A DNA stretch of 37,113 bases from Nitrospiraceae bacterium (GTDB lineage: Bacteria; Nitrospirota; Thermodesulfovibrionia; UBA6902), in the NCBI GenBank assembly GCA_003599505.1, contig QZKO01000067.1, positions 1 to 37,113 on the forward strand, given 5' to 3'. How positions within the stretch are numbered: position 1 is the stretch's first letter; every line of letters starts with the position of its first letter. This document shows, one piece after another, positions 6,425 to 32,235 of this stretch. The position numbers and the translations under genes are program-made. The notes beneath the pieces are model-generated. The model had not been told where the DNA came from, did not search any database, and worked only from the letters and a program-made list of their open reading frames with translations.

Positions 6425-7795
6425 TTACCAGTCCTTCTTCAACCCCGCCTTCTCCTGGTCGGCCACGACAACAAGGACAAAATTCTCGGGGTCGAGATAT
6501 TTTTTCGCCATCTGAAGGACGTCTTCTTTAGTTACGCGGTTGATGTAATCCGGATACCTGTCGATATAGTCCATCCCGAGTCCGTAATATTCGACGGCTA
6601 TGAGGAAGTTCGCGATCCTGGCGCCTGTCTCCAGCCTGAGGGGGAAACTGCCGGTAAGAAACGATTTCGCGTCAGCCAGCTCCGTGTCGGACACCGCTGA
6701 GTTCCTGATATCTTCAATCTCATTTAAGATCTCCGCAATCGCGGCATTGGCGGATTCGTTCTTTGTCTGGACGCCTGCCTGAAAAGTCCCTCCATATTTG
6801 TTCGCCATAAAAAAACTGTGCACATCATAGGCAAGCCCTTTCTGCTCCCTGATATTCTGCATGAGCCGGGACCCAAACCCTCCCCCACCCAGGATGAAGT
6901 TCATAACATGGACAGCGTAATAATCGGGATCGTCCCTGCTGATCCCTGCATGACCGAATATGATATTGGCCTGGGAAAGGTCTTTGTCTACCGTGATAAT
7001 CTTTCTTTTCCTGACGGGTTCGTATTTCCGAGGCACGGACGTTTGAAGGCTCTTTGAATTCCAGCCGGAGAAATACTCTTTGAGCATGGCGCTAATTTCA
7101 TCAGGAGTTATGTCGCCTACGACAGACATAATCGCGTTATCGGGAGCATAATAAGCGGAATGGAAACGCACGATGTCGTCCCTGTTAATTCTGTCAAGTG
7201 AGTCAGACGTCCCGGTGATCAGCCTTCCGTATGGATGGGAACCGAATACCGCCTTGCTGAACTCTCTTGAGGCGACAAAGCCCGGGGACTCTTCCTGCGC
7301 CTTTAAACCGCCCTTGATCCGTTCTCTTTTCTTGTTCAGCTCATCCTCAGGAAAAGACGGGTTGAGGATTATATCCGAAAGCAGGTCGAACCCCAGGTCC
7401 AAATCCTTCTTAAGAACAGAGAGCGAAACCGTAACATAGTCGTCTCCGCCCGACGCGCCGATTGCCGCCCCGACAAAATCCGCTTCTTCGCTTATCTGTA
7501 CAGAGGTCCTCCTGCCGGTCCCTGAGGCAAGGAGCTCGGCAGTCAGGTTGGCGAGCCCGGCCTTTTCTTCCGGTTCGATGATGCTTCCGGCTTTAATCCC
7601 GACCGAAACTTTGACAATCGGGAGGTTATGTCTCTCAACAACCAGGAGCGTCAGCCCGTTCTCAAGTACAGACCTTTGAATATCAAGGGCGTGGGCGTCA
7701 GCAGACAGTAAACAGTAAACAGTGAACAGCAATAAAACACTGACGAGTAACGGGTAACGGGTAACGGGTCTTTTTCTTGATTTCTCATTTCTCAC
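6425..7795 (-). CDS. M16 family peptidase-like protein, non-catalytic partner, exported
   Basis: A 456-residue protein of the insulinase/processing-peptidase family with two M16 halves (about 40-215 and 220-456). The HxxEH zinc site is absent; the matching place reads ANLTAELLASGT. The second half keeps the substrate-binding R/Y region (GGGGFGSRLMQNIREQKGLAYDVHSF). This is the usual make-up of the inactive subunit in a two-chain bacterial M16B peptidase, with the upstream gene supplying zinc. The start is GTG at 7795 inside a GTGA overlap with the upstream stop codon, so translation is coupled. The signal peptide (residues about 16-36, cleavage after AHA) is encoded almost wholly by 7-bp tandem tracts. 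Confidence 0.88.
   Translation of the reverse strand: MRNEKSRKRPVTRYPLLVSVLLLFTVYCLLSADAHALDIQRSVLENGLTLLVVERHNLPIVKVSVGIKAGSIIEPEEKAGLANLTAELLASGTGRRTSVQISEEADFVGAAIGASGGDDYVTVSLSVLKKDLDLGFDLLSDIILNPSFPEDELNKKRERIKGGLKAQEESPGFVASREFSKAVFGSHPYGRLITGTSDSLDRINRDDIVRFHSAYYAPDNAIMSVVGDITPDEISAMLKEYFSGWNSKSLQTSVPRKYEPVRKRKIITVDKDLSQANIIFGHAGISRDDPDYYAVHVMNFILGGGGFGSRLMQNIREQKGLAYDVHSFFMANKYGGTFQAGVQTKNESANAAIAEILNEIEDIRNSAVSDTELADAKSFLTGSFPLRLETGARIANFLIAVEYYGLGMDYIDRYPDYINRVTKEDVLQMAKKYLDPENFVLVVVADQEKAGLKKDW
7703..7730. repeat. AACAGTA heptamer tract (encodes signal peptide core)
   Basis: About four units of a 7-bp repeat. On the minus strand they read TGTTTAC and encode the FTVYCLLS part of the signal peptide of the M16 protein. 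Confidence 0.85.
7745..7770. repeat. GTAACGG heptamer tract (encodes signal peptide n-region)
   Basis: Three perfect GTAACGG units and a GTAACGA-like edge. On the minus strand they encode the PVTRYPLLV segment of the same signal peptide. Confidence 0.9.
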
Positions 7796-7815
7796 TTCTC
7801 ACTTCTCACTTTCAC
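7782..7815. repeat. TTCTCAC heptamer tract spanning a stop/start overlap
   Basis: About four units of TTCTCAC/TTCTCAT. On the minus strand the units read GTGAGAA and hold both the TGA stop of the upstream M16 gene and the GTG start of the downstream one. Confidence 0.9.
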
Positions 7816-9138
7816 AGGCACCAATATCCCGACTGTCCTTTTATCCTCAACAAGGTATTTCTGCGCGACTCTCCGGACGTCCTGCGGCGTTACCCTTCTT
7901 ATCCCTTCAAAATATTTGTCTTTCAGCTCCCACCCTCCCAACATTTCAAACATCGCGATAACCTGCGCCTGAAAGAAAAGTGAATCCTGTCCCATGATAA
8001 AGCCGGCTTCAATCCGGTTCTTTGCCTTTTGCACCTCCCGCTCATCCGGCGGCTCTTTCTTTATCTTCTCCACTTCCTCATAGAGGGCCTTTTCAACCTC
8101 TTCTATCGATTTCCCCGGAAGCGCCGTTGCGTCGAGATAAAACAGGGAGGGATATTTCTCCAGGCTGCTGTATGACGCGTCGGCTGAAAGGGCGATCCTT
8201 TTTTCATCGACCAGGCTCCTGTAGGTTCTCGAACTCCTGCCTCCGGCCAGAACGCCGGCAAGCACTTCGAGGGCATAGCTGTCTTCACTGGAAATATTGG
8301 GAGCTTTATACGAGGAAAGGACATACGGCAGCTCCGCTTCTTTCCTGACATACAGCCTTCTTTCTCCGGACTGTTCCGGCTCCCCTATGTCGGGGTCCCG
8401 TATCTCACCGCCTGCCGGCATGCTCCCGAATTCAGCCCTGATCTTTTCTATCACGTAACCGGCATCGATATTTCCCGCAACGACTATCATCGCGTTGTTC
8501 GGAGCATAGTATTTTTTGTAATATGCATAGAGGTCGTCCCTCGTTATTCTCTTCAGGTCCTCCATCCACCCGATGACCGGCCAGCGGTATGGAATATTCC
8601 TGAACGCCGTCGACATGACCTCTTCGTATACAAGGCTCTGCGGGTCGTCATCATAACGCATCCTCCGCTCCTCCATGACAACGTCCCTTTCTGAAAGTGT
8701 CTCTTCCGGGTCCATAAGCAGGTTCCGCATCCTGTCGGCCTCAAGCTCTATGGAGAGGTAGAGTTTGTCCGGAGCAAGTTTCTGGTGATAAAATACATAA
8801 TCCCTGCTTGTCCCGGCATTATCAACCCCCCCTGCCCTGCTGATAAGCTTTGAAAACACCTTCGGGCCGTATTTGGGCGTGCCCTTGAACATCATGTGTT
8901 CGAGAAGGTGGCTTAGCCCGGTCTTTCCCACCTGCTCATGTATCGAGCCGGCGTTGTACCATATCTGAAAAACAGCCAGGGGGGCATTCGGGTCTTTCAG
9001 GACAAAGACCTTGAGCCCGTTTGGAAGCGTTTCCTCGTAAAGCGCCCCGTTTTTCTCAGTGGTAACATTCTTTACTGTATGGGCGCAGCCTGAAATAAAT
9101 AAATACAACAGCAATATTACAGAGATATATTTGTTCAT
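7792..9138 (-). CDS. M16 family zinc metallopeptidase, lipoprotein
   Basis: A 448-residue M16B peptidase and the catalytic member of the pair. The zinc motif HLLEH (77-81) is intact and the third ligand Glu156/157 sits in VVMEERRM about 75 residues later, as in pitrilysin. The N-terminus MNKYISVILLLYLFISGCAH has a lipobox with Cys18, so the enzyme should be anchored in a membrane facing the periplasm. An R/Y-type segment (GGRSSRTYRSLVDEKRIALSADASY) is in the second half. I chose ATG 9138 over the in-frame TTG at 9159 because a good promoter would start transcription near 9143 and because the signal peptide then begins normally. Its last codons lie in a 7-bp repeat that also starts the next gene. 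Confidence 0.92.
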   Translation of the reverse strand: MNKYISVILLLYLFISGCAHTVKNVTTEKNGALYEETLPNGLKVFVLKDPNAPLAVFQIWYNAGSIHEQVGKTGLSHLLEHMMFKGTPKYGPKVFSKLISRAGGVDNAGTSRDYVFYHQKLAPDKLYLSIELEADRMRNLLMDPEETLSERDVVMEERRMRYDDDPQSLVYEEVMSTAFRNIPYRWPVIGWMEDLKRITRDDLYAYYKKYYAPNNAMIVVAGNIDAGYVIEKIRAEFGSMPAGGEIRDPDIGEPEQSGERRLYVRKEAELPYVLSSYKAPNISSEDSYALEVLAGVLAGGRSSRTYRSLVDEKRIALSADASYSSLEKYPSLFYLDATALPGKSIEEVEKALYEEVEKIKKEPPDEREVQKAKNRIEAGFIMGQDSLFFQAQVIAMFEMLGGWELKDKYFEGIRRVTPQDVRRVAQKYLVEDKRTVGILVPVKVRSEK

Positions 9139-9149
9139 CGCGATTTTAA

Positions 9150-9178
9150 ATACTACCAAAGATAAGAATTGAGGTCAA
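9150..9178 (-). promoter_or_regulatory. Promoter of the M16 operon, very short leader
   Basis: On the minus strand TTGACC (9173-9178), 17 bp, TAGTAT (9150-9155). The -10 box ends 11 bases before ATG 9138. It overlaps the divergent promoter region of the thioredoxin-like gene. Confidence 0.6.
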
Positions 9179-9269: not shown

Positions 9270-9851
9270 ATGAAAACAATCAATAATTTTTTTTACATAA
9301 CCATAATATGGCTTTCATTCATTCCCTTTATGTACGCCTGTACTGAAAACAGGCGCGATGAATCATCAGGGGACAAGACATCGGTTGCGGAATTGATGGC
9401 GTCAATGAACATCCGGCCCGTAACCAAACCGGCCAAAGCCCCTGATTTCGAGCTCTTCTCGGTGACAGGCGAAAAAACAACCCTGAGCCGGCACCACGGG
9501 AAAGTGGTCCTGCTTAGTTTCTGGACGACGTGGTGACCGTGGTGCAGGAAGGAGTTGCCTTCCCTGGAAAGTCTCAACCGGCATTTTAAAAATAAGGATT
9601 TTGTGGTCCTTGGAATTGATATACAGGAAGACAGAGACACTGTCATGAGATATGTCCGGGAACACGGGCTCTCCTATCATAATCTCCTTGATGAAACAGG
9701 AGAAGTGAGCGCGAGCTACGGCGTCCGCTCCACCCCCGTAAAGTTCATAATCGATGCCGACGGCAATGTGGCCGGCGTCGCGCTCGGCTACAGAGAGTGG
9801 GATGGGGAAGAAATGAAGTCCCTTATCCGGAAGTTGATGGAGACCGGTTAA
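9270..9851 (+). CDS. TlpA/ResA-like thioredoxin-fold lipoprotein, probable selenoprotein (in-frame UGA, U-P-W-C)
   Basis: One reading frame of 193 residues interrupted by a single TGA at 9534-9536 (residue 89). The N-terminus is a lipoprotein signal (FIPFMYAC, Cys24). The fold is a TlpA/ResA thiol-disulfide oxidoreductase: APDFELFSVTGEKTTLS, GKVVLLSFWTTW, then UGA-P-W-C and RKELPSLE, KDFVVLGIDIQED, GVRSTPVKFIID with the cis-Pro, and FIIDADGNV. The UGA stands exactly where the first Cys of CxxC belongs, and the frame is otherwise perfectly conserved on both sides. A hairpin placed as in bacterial SECIS elements follows. Selenocysteine insertion is therefore the best reading; a TGC-to-TGA sequencing error or a recent pseudogene are alternatives. 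No Shine-Dalgarno is seen. The stop overlaps the convergent gene by 4 bp. Confidence 0.75.
9537..9567 (+). promoter_or_regulatory. Candidate bacterial SECIS hairpin after the in-frame UGA
   Basis: GGAAGG (9547-9552) pairs with CCTTCC (9558-9563) around the loop AGTTG. The loop starts 16 bases after the UGA and has a G in its first two positions, with GU in the loop. This fits the published general model for bacterial SECIS elements (stem-loop 16-37 bases after UGA). An alternative pairing (CAGG/CCTG with a one-base bulge) lengthens the stem. Confidence 0.55.
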
Positions 9852-10171
9852 TATATCGACCTGACCCTGCCGGTCCCGCGGTCGAAAATGATAGTATCAA
9901 CCATCCCCTTGTTATCATATATCCTGGCTCTTATAAACTGCTTCCCGGTTTTTTCGATCTCAACGGCCAGTCCTTTTTTCCTGTAATAGTCTTTCAAGGC
10001 TTTTTCCGAGTCATAACCGGTCATTATGGTCTGACAGGTCCCGTATTTTCCGCACTGAGGGCAAAAATCTCCATAAGGAGTGACGGACTTTTCCTGGGGC
10101 CAGGCAGGGACTTCAAAAACAATCAGGGCCAGCAACGATATAATTCCTATAGGAAAAATTACATACCTCAT
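9848..10171 (-). CDS. Small exported protein with Cys cluster, unknown function
   Basis: A 107-residue protein with a signal peptide or N-terminal anchor (MRYVIFPIGIISLLALIVFEVPAWP) and then FCPQCGKYGTC, a C-x2-C-x5-C cluster that could bind metal or form disulfides. The C-terminal half (ALKDYYRKKGLAVEIEKTG, then ARIYDNKGMVDTIIFDRGTGRVRSIY) looks like a small alpha/beta domain. I do not recognise the family. ATG 10171 is preferred over 10189 because GAAGG lies 7 bases upstream and the signal peptide then starts cleanly. Its stop codon overlaps that of the probable selenoprotein, which makes a periplasmic thiol-related role conceivable but unproven. Confidence 0.65.
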   Translation of the reverse strand: MRYVIFPIGIISLLALIVFEVPAWPQEKSVTPYGDFCPQCGKYGTCQTIMTGYDSEKALKDYYRKKGLAVEIEKTGKQFIRARIYDNKGMVDTIIFDRGTGRVRSIY

Positions 10172-10251
10172 TTTCCAACCTTCATACAACTCTTATACAA
10201 TAACAAAAATAACAAAACATATTGAAGAAAATGTGAATTCACTTTTTGCTT

Positions 10252-11607
10252 TTAAAATGAAACGGTAAATTTTGCGCCTTTGCCGGGACTGCTCTCAACT
10301 TCCACCTTCCCTCCCATTACCCCGGCAAGCTCCTTTACGATAGCGAGTCCCAGCCCCTTCCCTCCCGATTCCTCATCCTTGTAAAACCTGTCGAAAATTT
10401 TTGAAACGTTCCGCTGTTCAATCCCTTTTCCGGTGTCTTCAACGGATATCAGGAACCCTTCACCGTAATCAGACGCGTTTTTGTCCCACCTGACGGTAAT
10501 CCCGCCTGAACCTGTATATTTAAAAGCATTGGTAAGGAGGTTTTTTAAAATTATATGAAGTTTCTCAGGATACGTTTTTACAGTAAGAGGAGGTCCGTCG
10601 GTCACTAAAAAAAGCCCCTTTTCTTCTATAAGCTTCTTCATGCCCCCGGCCGCTGTTTCGACAAAATCCCTCAGATTGACCTCTTCCATCTCCCCTCTCC
10701 TGAAAAAACTCGCCTCGGCCCGCGTAATATCTTCAATCCCTTCAACAAGGGAGATCATCCTCCGGACTTCCGCATTTATGTTATTCAATACCTCTCGCGG
10801 ATCGGAGATCACCCCGTCTTCAACCGCCTCGAGGTTCCCTCTTATTATTGTCAGCGGCGTTCTCAGTTCATGGGTAATATTGGAAGTCAGGTGCTTTCTC
10901 AGAAGGTCTTCTCTTTTCAGCGCCTCAGCCATATAATAAAACGTTTCCGTGAGCCTGTCTATCTCGTCTTTATATCTGCGGTGAGGTCCGGGTTTCTGGA
11001 CGGCAAAATCACCCCTTGCTATCTTTTCCGCTTCAGACGTAAGACGTCTTACCGGGCTGGAAAGGAACATGGTAAACAACATTGATAATATAACGGCCCC
11101 GCCGCCCGCGATAATAAAAGACGTGATCAGAAACTCCCTCCCTCTTCTTCTGAAAACCTCTTCCTTGAGAGGAAGCTGTCCGATCCGTTCAAGGGGTCTT
11201 ATATACAGCTTGCCTATCTCCCTGCCTTCGACATAGAGGGGATACCACGCGAACCCGCCCCTTCCAGACGGCAGTTTGAGAAACGCGTGCATTCTGCGCA
11301 GCATATAGGAATCCATTGAAAAAATAACGTCCGCGGAAGACATTATCCTGTTCTCCGAAGCGTCTTCAATATATGTCTCGAAACCGAGCATCAATCCCCA
11401 GTGGAGCGTCTCGTGAAGTGTTCCGTGGTCCCACGCGCCTTTTTTGTAGCTCCCTTCAATCGAGGCCAGAAGCCAGTATATCTGATCTTCTTTCGTCCCC
11501 TTTATAAAACCATCAAAATCCCTCATGATAAGTCTTTCAAAGACAACGTTCGAAAGCAGGGCGAGGAAGATAATAAATATGAACGCGAAGAAAAGTTTAG
11601 TCCTCAT
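10252..11607 (-). CDS. Membrane sensor histidine kinase, OmpR/EnvZ-type partner
   Basis: A 451-residue HPK1-type kinase. The order is TM1 (about 5-27), an extracytoplasmic sensor region of about 130 residues without a recognisable fold, TM2 (about 168-190), HAMP (to about 250, MFLSSPVRRLTSEAEKIARGDF), HisKA with the H-box NITHELRTPLTIIRGN, then HATPase_c with N-box LKNLLTNAFKYT, G1 VEDTGKGIEQ and G2 GGKGLGLAIVKEL. All catalytic boxes are intact, so it should be an active kinase. ATG 11607 overlaps the response regulator gene by 11 bp. The longer open frame upstream lies inside that gene and encodes low-complexity residues, so I rejected it. The signal sensed is unknown. Confidence 0.9.
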   Translation of the reverse strand: MRTKLFFAFIFIIFLALLSNVVFERLIMRDFDGFIKGTKEDQIYWLLASIEGSYKKGAWDHGTLHETLHWGLMLGFETYIEDASENRIMSSADVIFSMDSYMLRRMHAFLKLPSGRGGFAWYPLYVEGREIGKLYIRPLERIGQLPLKEEVFRRRGREFLITSFIIAGGGAVILSMLFTMFLSSPVRRLTSEAEKIARGDFAVQKPGPHRRYKDEIDRLTETFYYMAEALKREDLLRKHLTSNITHELRTPLTIIRGNLEAVEDGVISDPREVLNNINAEVRRMISLVEGIEDITRAEASFFRRGEMEEVNLRDFVETAAGGMKKLIEEKGLFLVTDGPPLTVKTYPEKLHIILKNLLTNAFKYTGSGGITVRWDKNASDYGEGFLISVEDTGKGIEQRNVSKIFDRFYKDEESGGKGLGLAIVKELAGVMGGKVEVESSPGKGAKFTVSF

Positions 11608-12289
11608 CCGGCCGGCCGATAAATCTGTATCCCATCCCGTAAACCGTCTTGATATATGACGGGTTTCTCGGGTCTTCCTCGATCTTGTGGCGGATGTTCT
11701 TGATGTGGGCGTCGATCGTCCTGTCGTATCCTTCGAAATCGTATCCGAGGATGATATTGACAAGCTGGAGTCTTGAAAAGACCTGCTCCGGACGCTCCGC
11801 GAGGCACTGCAGCAGTTTGAATTCCGTTGGGGTAAAGACTACGGGAGAGCCGTCCTTTTTTACTTCAAAGCGCGAAGAGTCGATAACGAGGTCCCCTTTA
11901 TTGAAACTGACGCTCTGCCTGACTCCTTTCACTCTCCTCAGCAGCGCCTTCACCCTTGCCGCAAGTTCTCTCGGGCTGAAGGGTTTTACCATATAATCAT
12001 CGGCGCCTATGCCGAGCCCTTTTATCCTTTCTTCCTCTTCACTCTTCGCGGTCAGCATAATGATGGGTATATCCGAATCCTTGCGGATCGTCCTGCAAAT
12101 GTCCTCCCCGTCCATATCCGGGAGCATAAGGTCAAGGATGATCAGGTCGAACCTGTTTTTCAGGGCGGAGACAGCCTGTTGCCCGGTCGGCGCCTCCGTT
12201 ACGCTGAAACCGTCTTTTTCAAGGTAAGCCTTCACGATATCGGCAATTTTCTTCTCATCCTCGACAACAAGTATCCTGCCGTTGTTCAT
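11597..12289 (-). CDS. OmpR/PhoB family response regulator
   Basis: A 230-residue two-domain regulator. The receiver domain (about 5-118) has the acidic pair Glu10/Asp11, phospho-acceptor Asp53 in LIILDLMLPDMDG, Thr80 and Lys102 (VKPFSPREL). A winged-helix DNA-binding domain follows (VVFTPTEFKLLQCLAERPEQVFSR to YIKTVYGMGYRF). Its gene comes first, followed by the overlapping histidine kinase, so both are co-expressed. The start at 12289 has no Shine-Dalgarno. An extended -10 box (TGT-TATCAT, ending about 6 bases upstream) makes a leaderless mRNA likely. The upstream region carries repeats and shows no direct-repeat operator that I could assign. Confidence 0.93.
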   Translation of the reverse strand: MNNGRILVVEDEKKIADIVKAYLEKDGFSVTEAPTGQQAVSALKNRFDLIILDLMLPDMDGEDICRTIRKDSDIPIIMLTAKSEEEERIKGLGIGADDYMVKPFSPRELAARVKALLRRVKGVRQSVSFNKGDLVIDSSRFEVKKDGSPVVFTPTEFKLLQCLAERPEQVFSRLQLVNIILGYDFEGYDRTIDAHIKNIRHKIEEDPRNPSYIKTVYGMGYRFIGRPDED

Positions 12290-12318
12290 GGTAAAATGAT
12301 AACACAAATAAAGAGCCT

Positions 12319-30361: not shown

Positions 30362-31151
30362 AATCCGTCTCGACAAACTGCTGCTGGACAAAGGCCTTGT
30401 TGAAAGCAGGGAAAAGGCAAAGGCCCTGATACTGGAAGGCAACGTACTGATAAACGGCATAGTCGTCGACAAGGCGGGCGCGCAGGTCAATCCCGATGAC
30501 GCGGTAACCCTGAAGAATATAATGCCGTACGTAAGCCGGGGAGGTTTAAAACTTGAACACGCGATCAGGGAATTTAATATCGATGTCCGGGACCGGATTG
30601 CCATGGACGCCGGGGCCTCGACAGGCGGCTTTACCGACTGCCTCCTGCAATACGGCGCGAAAAAAGTTTACGCGATCGACGTCGGTTACGGACAGTTGGA
30701 CTGGAAATTGAGAAATGACCCGCGCGTAGTTCCACTGGAAAAAACAAATGTTCGATATCTTGAAGATGTGGTCGGCGGAGGCAAGGGGCAAGGGGCAGGG
30801 GGCAAGAAGGGGCAGGGAATGGACGACCTCATCAACCGCAATGTCGATATCGCGACAATCGATGTCTCGTTTATTTCCCTTCTGAAGGTAATCCCGGAGG
30901 TTGTTAAATTTTTAAAGAAAGACGGTGAAATAATCGCCCTCATAAAACCGCAGTTCGAGGTCGGCAGAAAAGACGCAGGCAAGGGCGTGGTCAAAGACGA
31001 AGACAGGCGCCTTGAGGTCGTTGAAGTGATAAAGGGACAAGCGCAGGAAATGGGGCTTCACGTAGTCGGTGTAGTCCCCTCCCCCATCAAAGGGCCGAAG
31101 GGGAATGTGGAGTATCTGATTTATATGAGGCGGACGCCTCCATACGTCTAA
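30345..31151 (+). CDS. tlyA: TlyA family rRNA 2'-O-methyltransferase / hemolysin A family
   Basis: A 268-residue protein with an N-terminal S4 RNA-binding domain (about 7-65, RLDKLLLDKGLVESREKAKALI and VLINGIVV) and a FtsJ-like Rossmann methyltransferase domain (DAGASTGGFTDCLLQYGAKKVYAIDVGYGQLDWKLR, then DVSFISLLKVIP and ALIKPQFEVG). Relatives 2'-O-methylate 16S and 23S rRNA; the hemolysin name is historical. Residues about 143-158 are a Gly/Lys/Gln-rich insertion made by a GGGGCAA heptamer tract. The start overlaps dxs by 17 bp and the stop overlaps the convergent permease gene by 4 bp. Confidence 0.92.
   Translation: MPSSNKIRLDKLLLDKGLVESREKAKALILEGNVLINGIVVDKAGAQVNPDDAVTLKNIMPYVSRGGLKLEHAIREFNIDVRDRIAMDAGASTGGFTDCLLQYGAKKVYAIDVGYGQLDWKLRNDPRVVPLEKTNVRYLEDVVGGGKGQGAGGKKGQGMDDLINRNVDIATIDVSFISLLKVIPEVVKFLKKDGEIIALIKPQFEVGRKDAGKGVVKDEDRRLEVVEVIKGQAQEMGLHVVGVVPSPIKGPKGNVEYLIYMRRTPPYV
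30778..30818. repeat. GGGGCAA heptamer tract inside tlyA
   Basis: About six decayed 7-bp units in frame, nearly the same unit as the nrdJ tract at 5534-5569. Confidence 0.85.
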
Positions 31152-31675
31152 AGCCCTTTTTTCTCAAGCCATGCAAAAAGCGCAAGCCCGCCAAGAATAA
31201 ATACTGCAATTACCAGCCAGGGGTCTATACCTGATACCTGGGACAAGGTTATTGAGCCCGCTTTACCCCATGCTAATACCGTATCGGCAATCATTGGATA
31301 AATTTCGGCGAAAAGGGCCGCCCCGGCAAGCATTCCGAGGATGCCCCAGAATGCGTCCAGCCTGCCTTCGCCTAATGCGCCGAGTGATGTCCCGGGGCAA
31401 TACCCGAGGAACCCCCAGCCTATTCCGAAAATAAGCCCCCCTATGACATTCGCTCCAAGCGTTGCAGGCAATATGAGCGGTTTGGCTATCCCGAGTGTAT
31501 GAAGTATATGTACGCCGACCATACCAACCAGGATAGCTGAAAACATAAATTTAACAATGGTCATGTCTGTCAGACGCAGCGCCCCGACCTGTTTGTCATA
31601 ACGGACTACCCTTGCCTTCTGTAAGAGAAACCCGAAAAATATTCCTGCGACAAGCCCATTGATTAACATGGTCAT
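31148..31675 (-). CDS. YeeE/YedE-type sulfur permease half (PmpB/TsuA-like)
   Basis: A 175-residue membrane protein with about four helices and the YeeE/YedE signature GFLGYCPGTSLGALGEG, whose Cys matches one of the Cys residues used for thiosulfate passage in TsuA. It is half the length of the fused permeases. The other half is encoded just upstream with a 4-bp ATGA overlap, so the two should form one complex. Thiosulfate or another reduced sulfur compound is the likely substrate, inferred from the family. An ATG at 31675 is followed by a second in-frame ATG at 31669. Confidence 0.85.
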   Translation of the reverse strand: MTMLINGLVAGIFFGFLLQKARVVRYDKQVGALRLTDMTIVKFMFSAILVGMVGVHILHTLGIAKPLILPATLGANVIGGLIFGIGWGFLGYCPGTSLGALGEGRLDAFWGILGMLAGAALFAEIYPMIADTVLAWGKAGSITLSQVSGIDPWLVIAVFILGGLALFAWLEKKGL

Positions 31676-32196
31676 CTGCGCTTGTCCTCCCGGTAAAGTA
31701 TTTTAGCGACAACTATGCCGCCGGCAAAAAAACAGACAAGCACCACAAGACCGCTCACTGCCAACTGGACTAAAGCGCTTAGTCCGTAACCGCTCGGGCA
31801 GCCGCCCGCCAACCTTGCGCCGACCATAAGTATTACCCCGCCTGTAAATGCAACCACGCCCCTTTTGAGGGCGCCCGGGCCAAAGCGGGATTGCCACATA
31901 TCAGGCACTGATGTTATCCGAAAACTCCCGGAGGTTATTGCTGAAATGAATGCGCCTATCAAAATACCGGTTACAAACATCAACTGCCAATCGATCTGAG
32001 GCACGAACCTTATAAAATAATCCATTCCCGCCACACGTTCAGCGCTGAATAATTGTTCGATCATTCCCGCTGTCCGCACAAAACAGGTGGAGGAGCCGAA
32101 ATACTGCCCCGCGCTCCAGGCGGACAGGATAATTACCAAACCAGTCAGCGCGCCTGCCAGATAAGGGTTCCATCCTTTATCTTTTTCCGCATCCAT
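31672..32196 (-). CDS. YeeE/YedE-type sulfur permease half (PmpA-like)
   Basis: A 174-residue membrane protein with about four helices. It carries STCFVRTAGMIE with Cys38 and the Cys-containing signature GARLAGGCPSGYGLSALVQLAVSG, matching conserved Cys sites of YeeE/TsuA. It is the first gene of a two-gene unit. ATG 32196 is supported by GGGAGG 8 bases upstream; the open frame to 32232 is not used. The split into two genes mirrors the PmpA/PmpB arrangement of sulfur-metabolising bacteria. Confidence 0.87.
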   Translation of the reverse strand: MDAEKDKGWNPYLAGALTGLVIILSAWSAGQYFGSSTCFVRTAGMIEQLFSAERVAGMDYFIRFVPQIDWQLMFVTGILIGAFISAITSGSFRITSVPDMWQSRFGPGALKRGVVAFTGGVILMVGARLAGGCPSGYGLSALVQLAVSGLVVLVCFFAGGIVVAKILYREDKRR

Positions 32197-32235
32197 CGCA
32201 TAAACCTCCCAAACTTGTTTTTCCGATATCAATAC

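Follow-up and report, generated by a model that had tools for sequence, protein, structure and literature searches.

A predicted TlpA/ResA-type selenoprotein with a UPWC active site, from a selenocysteine-only clade in one bacterial class

ResA and TlpA are periplasmic thiol-disulfide reductases that serve the maturation of cytochrome c or of copper centres. In the chemistry of the TlpA/ResA family, the first active-site residue (position 89 in the protein described here) is the attacking nucleophile, and the last (position 92) is the resolving one. Selenoproteins of the TlpA-like, redoxin and AhpC-TSA families, in which selenocysteine (Sec) takes the first place of a UxxC motif, have been predicted since 2005, with surveys in 2005 and 2008 (PMC1088965, PMC2398784). 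Members with the cd02966 (TlpA-like), PF08534 and PF00578 domains are tabulated (PMC13188914, PMC9312934, PMC1088965, PMC2398784), for instance as 'Thiol-disulfide isomerase-like protein' (cd02966), 'Redoxin family protein' (PF08534) and 'Prx-like thiol:disulfide oxidoreductase' (PF00578) in Table 1 of PMC13188914. Exemplars of the published sets are MGB1650493.1, HEU0032618.1 and WP_010940744.1. In most selenoprotein families the Cys homologues outnumber the Sec forms (PMC1794560).

The locus described here belongs to a Nitrospiraceae bacterium whose assembly comprises 2.64 Mb in 87 contigs and is 95% complete; the whole stretch of 37,113 nucleotides that was analysed is referred to below as the window. 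Read directly from the sequence, one frame runs from an ATG at 9270 to a TAA ending at 9851 and is broken solely by a TGA at 9534-9536. This codon takes precisely the place of the first Cys in a thioredoxin CxxC motif, in the context FWTTW-U-PWC-RKELPS, and the cis-Pro motif RSTP is kept downstream, near the C end of the 193-residue product. In all these points the coordinates and motifs of the preliminary description were exact. The features of the gene are as follows.

9270..9851, plus strand: predicted selenoprotein CDS, TlpA/ResA-type thioredoxin fold, 193 aa, U89
9270..9341, plus strand: probable signal peptide with lipobox-like MYAC, the Cys being residue 24 (codon 9339-9341)
9534..9536, plus strand: in-frame UGA (U89), first position of UPWC, predicted Sec codon
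9543..9545, plus strand: resolving Cys92 of U-P-W-C, invariant among orthologues
9732..9737, plus strand: Thr155-Pro156 of RSTP, the cis-Pro motif that faces the active site, P156 invariant

TGA is the ordinary stop in 10 of the 33 genes of the window, so the genetic code is not generally changed, and a general recoding of UGA was ruled out. The gene very probably encodes a periplasmic, likely lipid-anchored thiol-disulfide oxidoreductase of the TlpA/ResA type with Sec as the attacking residue, as had been proposed earlier. In Pfam, a single AhpC-TSA/Redoxin domain runs uninterrupted through the UGA (residues 56-168, 3.5e-27), with 95 bits for PF00578 (cut-off 26) and 91 bits for PF08534 (cut-off 26.6). 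The AlphaFold model of the product is a confident TlpA/ResA fold (pLDDT 89), and its closest solved structures by Foldseek and VIA are ResA, TlpA and two thioredoxin-family proteins of Geobacter metallireducens, at Z about 20. The product thus agrees with the TlpA/ResA-like family (Pfam AhpC-TSA/Redoxin; cd02966) in profile, fold, active site and cis-Pro, with Sec replacing the first Cys of the active site (UPWC). Among the 25 NCBIfam models listed none passed its cut-off: ResA proper (NF002854) scored 96.3 bits against a cut-off of 170, TlpA proper (NF047696) 76.1 against 230, and the selenoprotein model NF041054 (WAxxUGC_long) 50.1 against 300, its UGC motif being absent and UPWC standing instead. 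The hydrophobic N end, modelled as a helix over residues 3-25, and the MYAC lipobox, which has a similar LxxC counterpart in most orthologues and lacks the Cys in a few, suggest that the protein is probably a lipoprotein.

Translation with table 11 splits the gene at the UGA into ORFs of 88 and 98 amino acids, as had been anticipated for gene callers. The presence of mechanical ORFs on both sides would also fit programmed termination or two genes, that is, a secreted peptide of 88 aa followed by a separate ORF from the TTG at 9555. This arrangement is exceedingly unlikely given that a single continuous domain spans the UGA, that the UGA would split the catalytic dyad, and that the codon and its spacing are invariant in all orthologues. 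The pN/pS ratio is 0.18-0.41 both upstream and downstream of the UGA, and there is no second lesion in the frame; as judged from these substitution patterns, both sides are under purifying selection.

The distribution of the UGA among relatives was followed by several searches. In 60 related genomes we found about 30 orthologues with 47-66% identity, each with exactly one TGA, whereas the Cys-type relatives in the same search are at most 42% identical and have no stop at this site. A profile search across the phylum (396 genomes) gave the same division: the best 25 matches all score above 184 bits and all carry one TGA, and the Cys forms begin only below 170 bits, where internal stops are few. 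A DNA pattern in which the third base of the codon was left open matched 40 sites in 36 of the 230 genomes of the class, all of them TGA, and the reversed-pattern control over these 230 genomes gave zero matches. The alignment of homologues suggested in the preliminary description gives TGA at 32 of 32 codon-aligned orthologous loci, and the tree unites 39 UGA proteins in a single clade (97/99 support) that has no Cys member. Beyond these sets, another scan of genomic contigs returned distant relatives only (28-38% identity), and viral contigs gave only distant thioredoxin-fold matches, mostly with 21-35% identity over the domain.

The orthologues thus all keep an in-frame UGA at a position of redox function. 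Since TGA is one base away from a Cys codon and the locus comes from a single assembly, a sequencing or assembly error that hides a TGC or TGT of an ordinary Cys-type TlpA had to be weighed. The chance of this is practically negligible: independent genomes all have TGA at this codon of their orthologues, and because it recurs in about 40 genomes, an independent misreading of C or T as A is not possible. In addition, the gene has a hairpin, which is missing from the Cys paralogues. The reading frame and its in-frame TGA are real, and reflect neither an error nor a decaying gene; the decay that had been named as an alternative is contradicted by the constraint on both halves of the gene and by the single TGA in every orthologue.

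This hairpin was assessed by the criteria for bacterial SECIS elements, a downstream stem-loop with a small apical loop containing G, as in PMC1088965.

9547..9563, plus strand: SECIS-like hairpin beginning 10 nt past the UGA, with the core GGAAGG-AGTTG-CCTTCC and a loop G

It stands immediately downstream of the UGA, spanning +14 to +30 (the U of UGA being 1), and its five-base loop AGUUG has G in second place. Codons +4 to +9 (AGG AAG GAG TTG CCT TCC) have a codon entropy of 0-0.6 bits, whereas most other equally conserved residues have 1-2 bits, and this synonymous freeze is confined to the 18 bases that form the hairpin. Between the genome under study (G000) and its relative G002, pS drops to 0 within residues 90-99 from 0.6-0.7 on both flanks. 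The base pairs are formed in 100% of cells among 31 distinct orthologues, where only one pair covaries (both sides changed, in three sequences). With the set enlarged by two UGA paralogues (L183, L184) and seven class-level members of the clade, pairing stays at 99.6% and four of the six pairs have changed on both sides; none of 500 shuffles reached this value and no slide comes near it. The hairpins of the two paralogues keep the same register with different bases. In the synonymous-codon control the mean z is -1.84 for UGA forms versus -0.13 for Cys paralogues. For the gene itself, 5% of the synonymous variants reach the stability of the native hairpin; this modest deviation is explained by the conserved peptide CRKELPSL that the same codons encode, and the case for a SECIS element therefore rests on the comparative freeze and covariation. 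From these comparisons, the hairpin, which covaries in relatives and is absent from Cys paralogues, appears as expected of a bacterial SECIS element.

A check of the genome for sel genes, proposed in the preliminary description, was borne out for selB, which is intact (365 bits), and for selD, which contains one in-frame TGA with a hairpin of its own, but not for selA and selC, neither of which was found in the 95%-complete assembly. Two genes for the alpha subunit of formate dehydrogenase (FdhA) carry TGA at the known Sec site (RV-U-HAP and RT-U-HAP), with strong hairpins. A selC embedded in or overlapping selB is reported for Nitrospirae (PMC13188914); around our selB no tRNA was found. The other nine genomes of the genus all carry selA and a canonical tRNA-Sec, whose anticodon is TCA in every genome to which ARAGORN was applied. 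At the level of the family, 14 of 37 genomes have no detectable selC match, and most of these have selA, selB and UGA genes.

The two missing genes are what would be expected of a relic, in which the lineage has recently lost selA and selC and translation of the gene now stops at the UGA. We consider this very unlikely. Both halves of the gene remain under purifying selection with no second lesion, selB, the UGA-containing selD and the two UGA-containing fdhA genes are intact, and several relatives have selC at the end of a contig or close to it, so that assemblies may plausibly drop it. In G015, selC is cut off by the contig end (G015:C141:1-80, truncated). Since selA and selC occur across the genus and other UGA genes are present in the genome itself, an assembly gap is the likeliest reason for their absence, far likelier than loss. 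The neighbourhoods of selB, selA and selC are not conserved in the genus; for example, the gene adjacent to selA in G001 and G008 sits at G000:C16:32788 without selA. With gene order around selA so variable, synteny cannot prove the gap. By coordinates, selC is at or less than 1 kb from a contig end in G015, G012, G049, G021, G040 and G009, and its locus may be a hotspot of integration or repeats at which assemblies break.

Several further observations concern the Sec machinery of relatives. Matches of 87 nt to tRNA-Sec in G010, G013, G024, G025 and G030 were rejected as tRNA-Ser. Three tRNA genes (L297:4546-4638, L298:603-695 and L299:6831-6925, in G008, G005 and G040, respectively) have a tRNA-Sec-like body (RF01852, 49-57 bits) with the Cys anticodon GCA and lie near a second UGA-containing selD; the adjacent formate dehydrogenase gene of G008 and G005 has TGT as its Sec-site codon, followed by only weak structure. 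They may be Sec-like tRNA-Cys or recoded tRNA-Sec. The genome under study has no such tRNA above 43 bits. G007 contains a second full-length selB (L300:7167-9098, on G007:C214), which outscores the other selB of that genome and adjoins an apparent DNA methylase/helicase pair.

A Cys-charged, Sec-like opal suppressor has reportedly been proposed in deltaproteobacteria, and an opal-suppressor tRNA-Cys that decodes the UGA as cysteine would agree with the Cys that all paralogues have at this site and with the Sec-like tRNA-Cys species of relatives. The latter, however, carry anticodon GCA and not UCA, while the UCA tRNAs that were found are canonical tRNA-Sec. Such a suppressor could work without a hairpin kept frozen for SelB, and would leave the UGA codons at known Sec sites of SelD and FdhA unexplained; its probability is accordingly minute. 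Taken together, the orthologues, the SECIS-like hairpin, the Sec machinery and the other UGA genes of the genome uphold the selenoprotein reading first put forward, and the orthologues and predicted fold likewise favour a TlpA/ResA-like probable lipoprotein. By all these comparisons, the UGA almost certainly inserts selenocysteine at the attacking position of the active site.

In the proposed mechanism, SelB with Sec-tRNA(Sec) would bind the hairpin just after the UGA at 9534-9536, and the ribosome would insert Sec there rather than terminate. After export to the envelope, the selenolate of Sec89 would attack the disulfide of an envelope substrate, Cys92 would resolve the mixed selenosulfide, and a putative membrane thiol reductase would recharge the Sec-Cys pair. 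Sec insertion itself, the reductive direction, the lipid anchoring and the substrate are what we infer.

The usual neighbours of the gene are M16 peptidases, a two-component system and a secreted protein with a YGDxCxxC motif, the last encoded head-on to it. In the window these are as follows.

7792..9159, minus strand: peptidase M16 family, conserved flanking gene (context)
9848..10189, minus strand: convergent neighbour, small secreted protein with a PVTPYGDxCxxCxxYGxC motif, syntenic in most relatives
10252..12307, minus strand: two-component system, HAMP histidine kinase and OmpR-type regulator, conserved flank (context)

The product of 9848..10189, which has no Pfam family, may be a partner or substrate of the selenoprotein. 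That the Sec-only TlpA subfamily is obligately Sec-dependent and dedicated to this YGDxCxxC partner and to envelope redox stress, as a new selenoprotein-substrate pair, is a tentative and rather improbable proposal. The immediate neighbours in the window are not cytochrome c genes. In several relatives a small secreted Met/His/Cys-rich protein without Pfam match (L142:8837-9229, also L144 and L145), missing in the window, sits between the M16 gene and the selenoprotein. Elsewhere in the window (31148-32232, minus strand) are two adjoining halves of a YeeE/YedE-type transporter (Sulf_transp), one with GCPSG, which corresponds, with Cys in place of Sec, to the GUxSG motif given for selenoproteins of the YeeE/YedE type (PMC13188914).

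UGA forms also occur in the TlpA superfamily outside the clade. A CPYC-type TlpA-like protein (L182, G011:C88) has UGA at the same site, and a distant TlpA-like pair (L183, G047:C23; L184, G050:C189) has it at the first CxxC position; two of the three have perfect hairpins of their own. Since the Sec label must change three times on the tree of the superfamily, Sec was probably gained more than once, and these three are probably independent gains, as far as the phylogeny tells. A repeated exchange of Cys and Sec inside one family is thereby indicated.

Compared with the described systems, the product shares with ResA (NF002854) and TlpA (NF047696, PDB 1jfu) the fold (Z about 20), the positions of active site and cis-Pro and, probably, the membrane-anchored periplasmic layout, but is only 26-30% identical to them and has UPWC where they have CxxC. 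NF041054 is likewise a ResA-like selenoprotein, but longer and with UGC instead of UxxC. The Cys-type TlpA/ResA paralogues of the same genomes (e.g. G000:C77:3720-4124) are 37% identical and have CPYC at the same site, but they lack both UGA and hairpin and fall in a separate clade. The published UxxC families are the nearest, with the thioredoxin fold, the same Pfam families, Sec first in UxxC and a SECIS just downstream. Selenoproteins of this kind are already known, and the preliminary description overstated the novelty in calling the protein unusual. By description, the published families have many Cys homologues, whereas the present clade is Sec-only, confined to one class, usually with a lipobox and in a conserved neighbourhood. 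Standard annotation would split the gene in every genome of the clade and thus leave a predicted envelope selenoenzyme of the class, with Sec in its active site, invisible. What is probably new here is a Sec-only clade in one bacterial class, unusual since Cys forms outnumber Sec forms in most families, and therefore a good test of what Sec gives to an envelope thiol-disulfide reductase.
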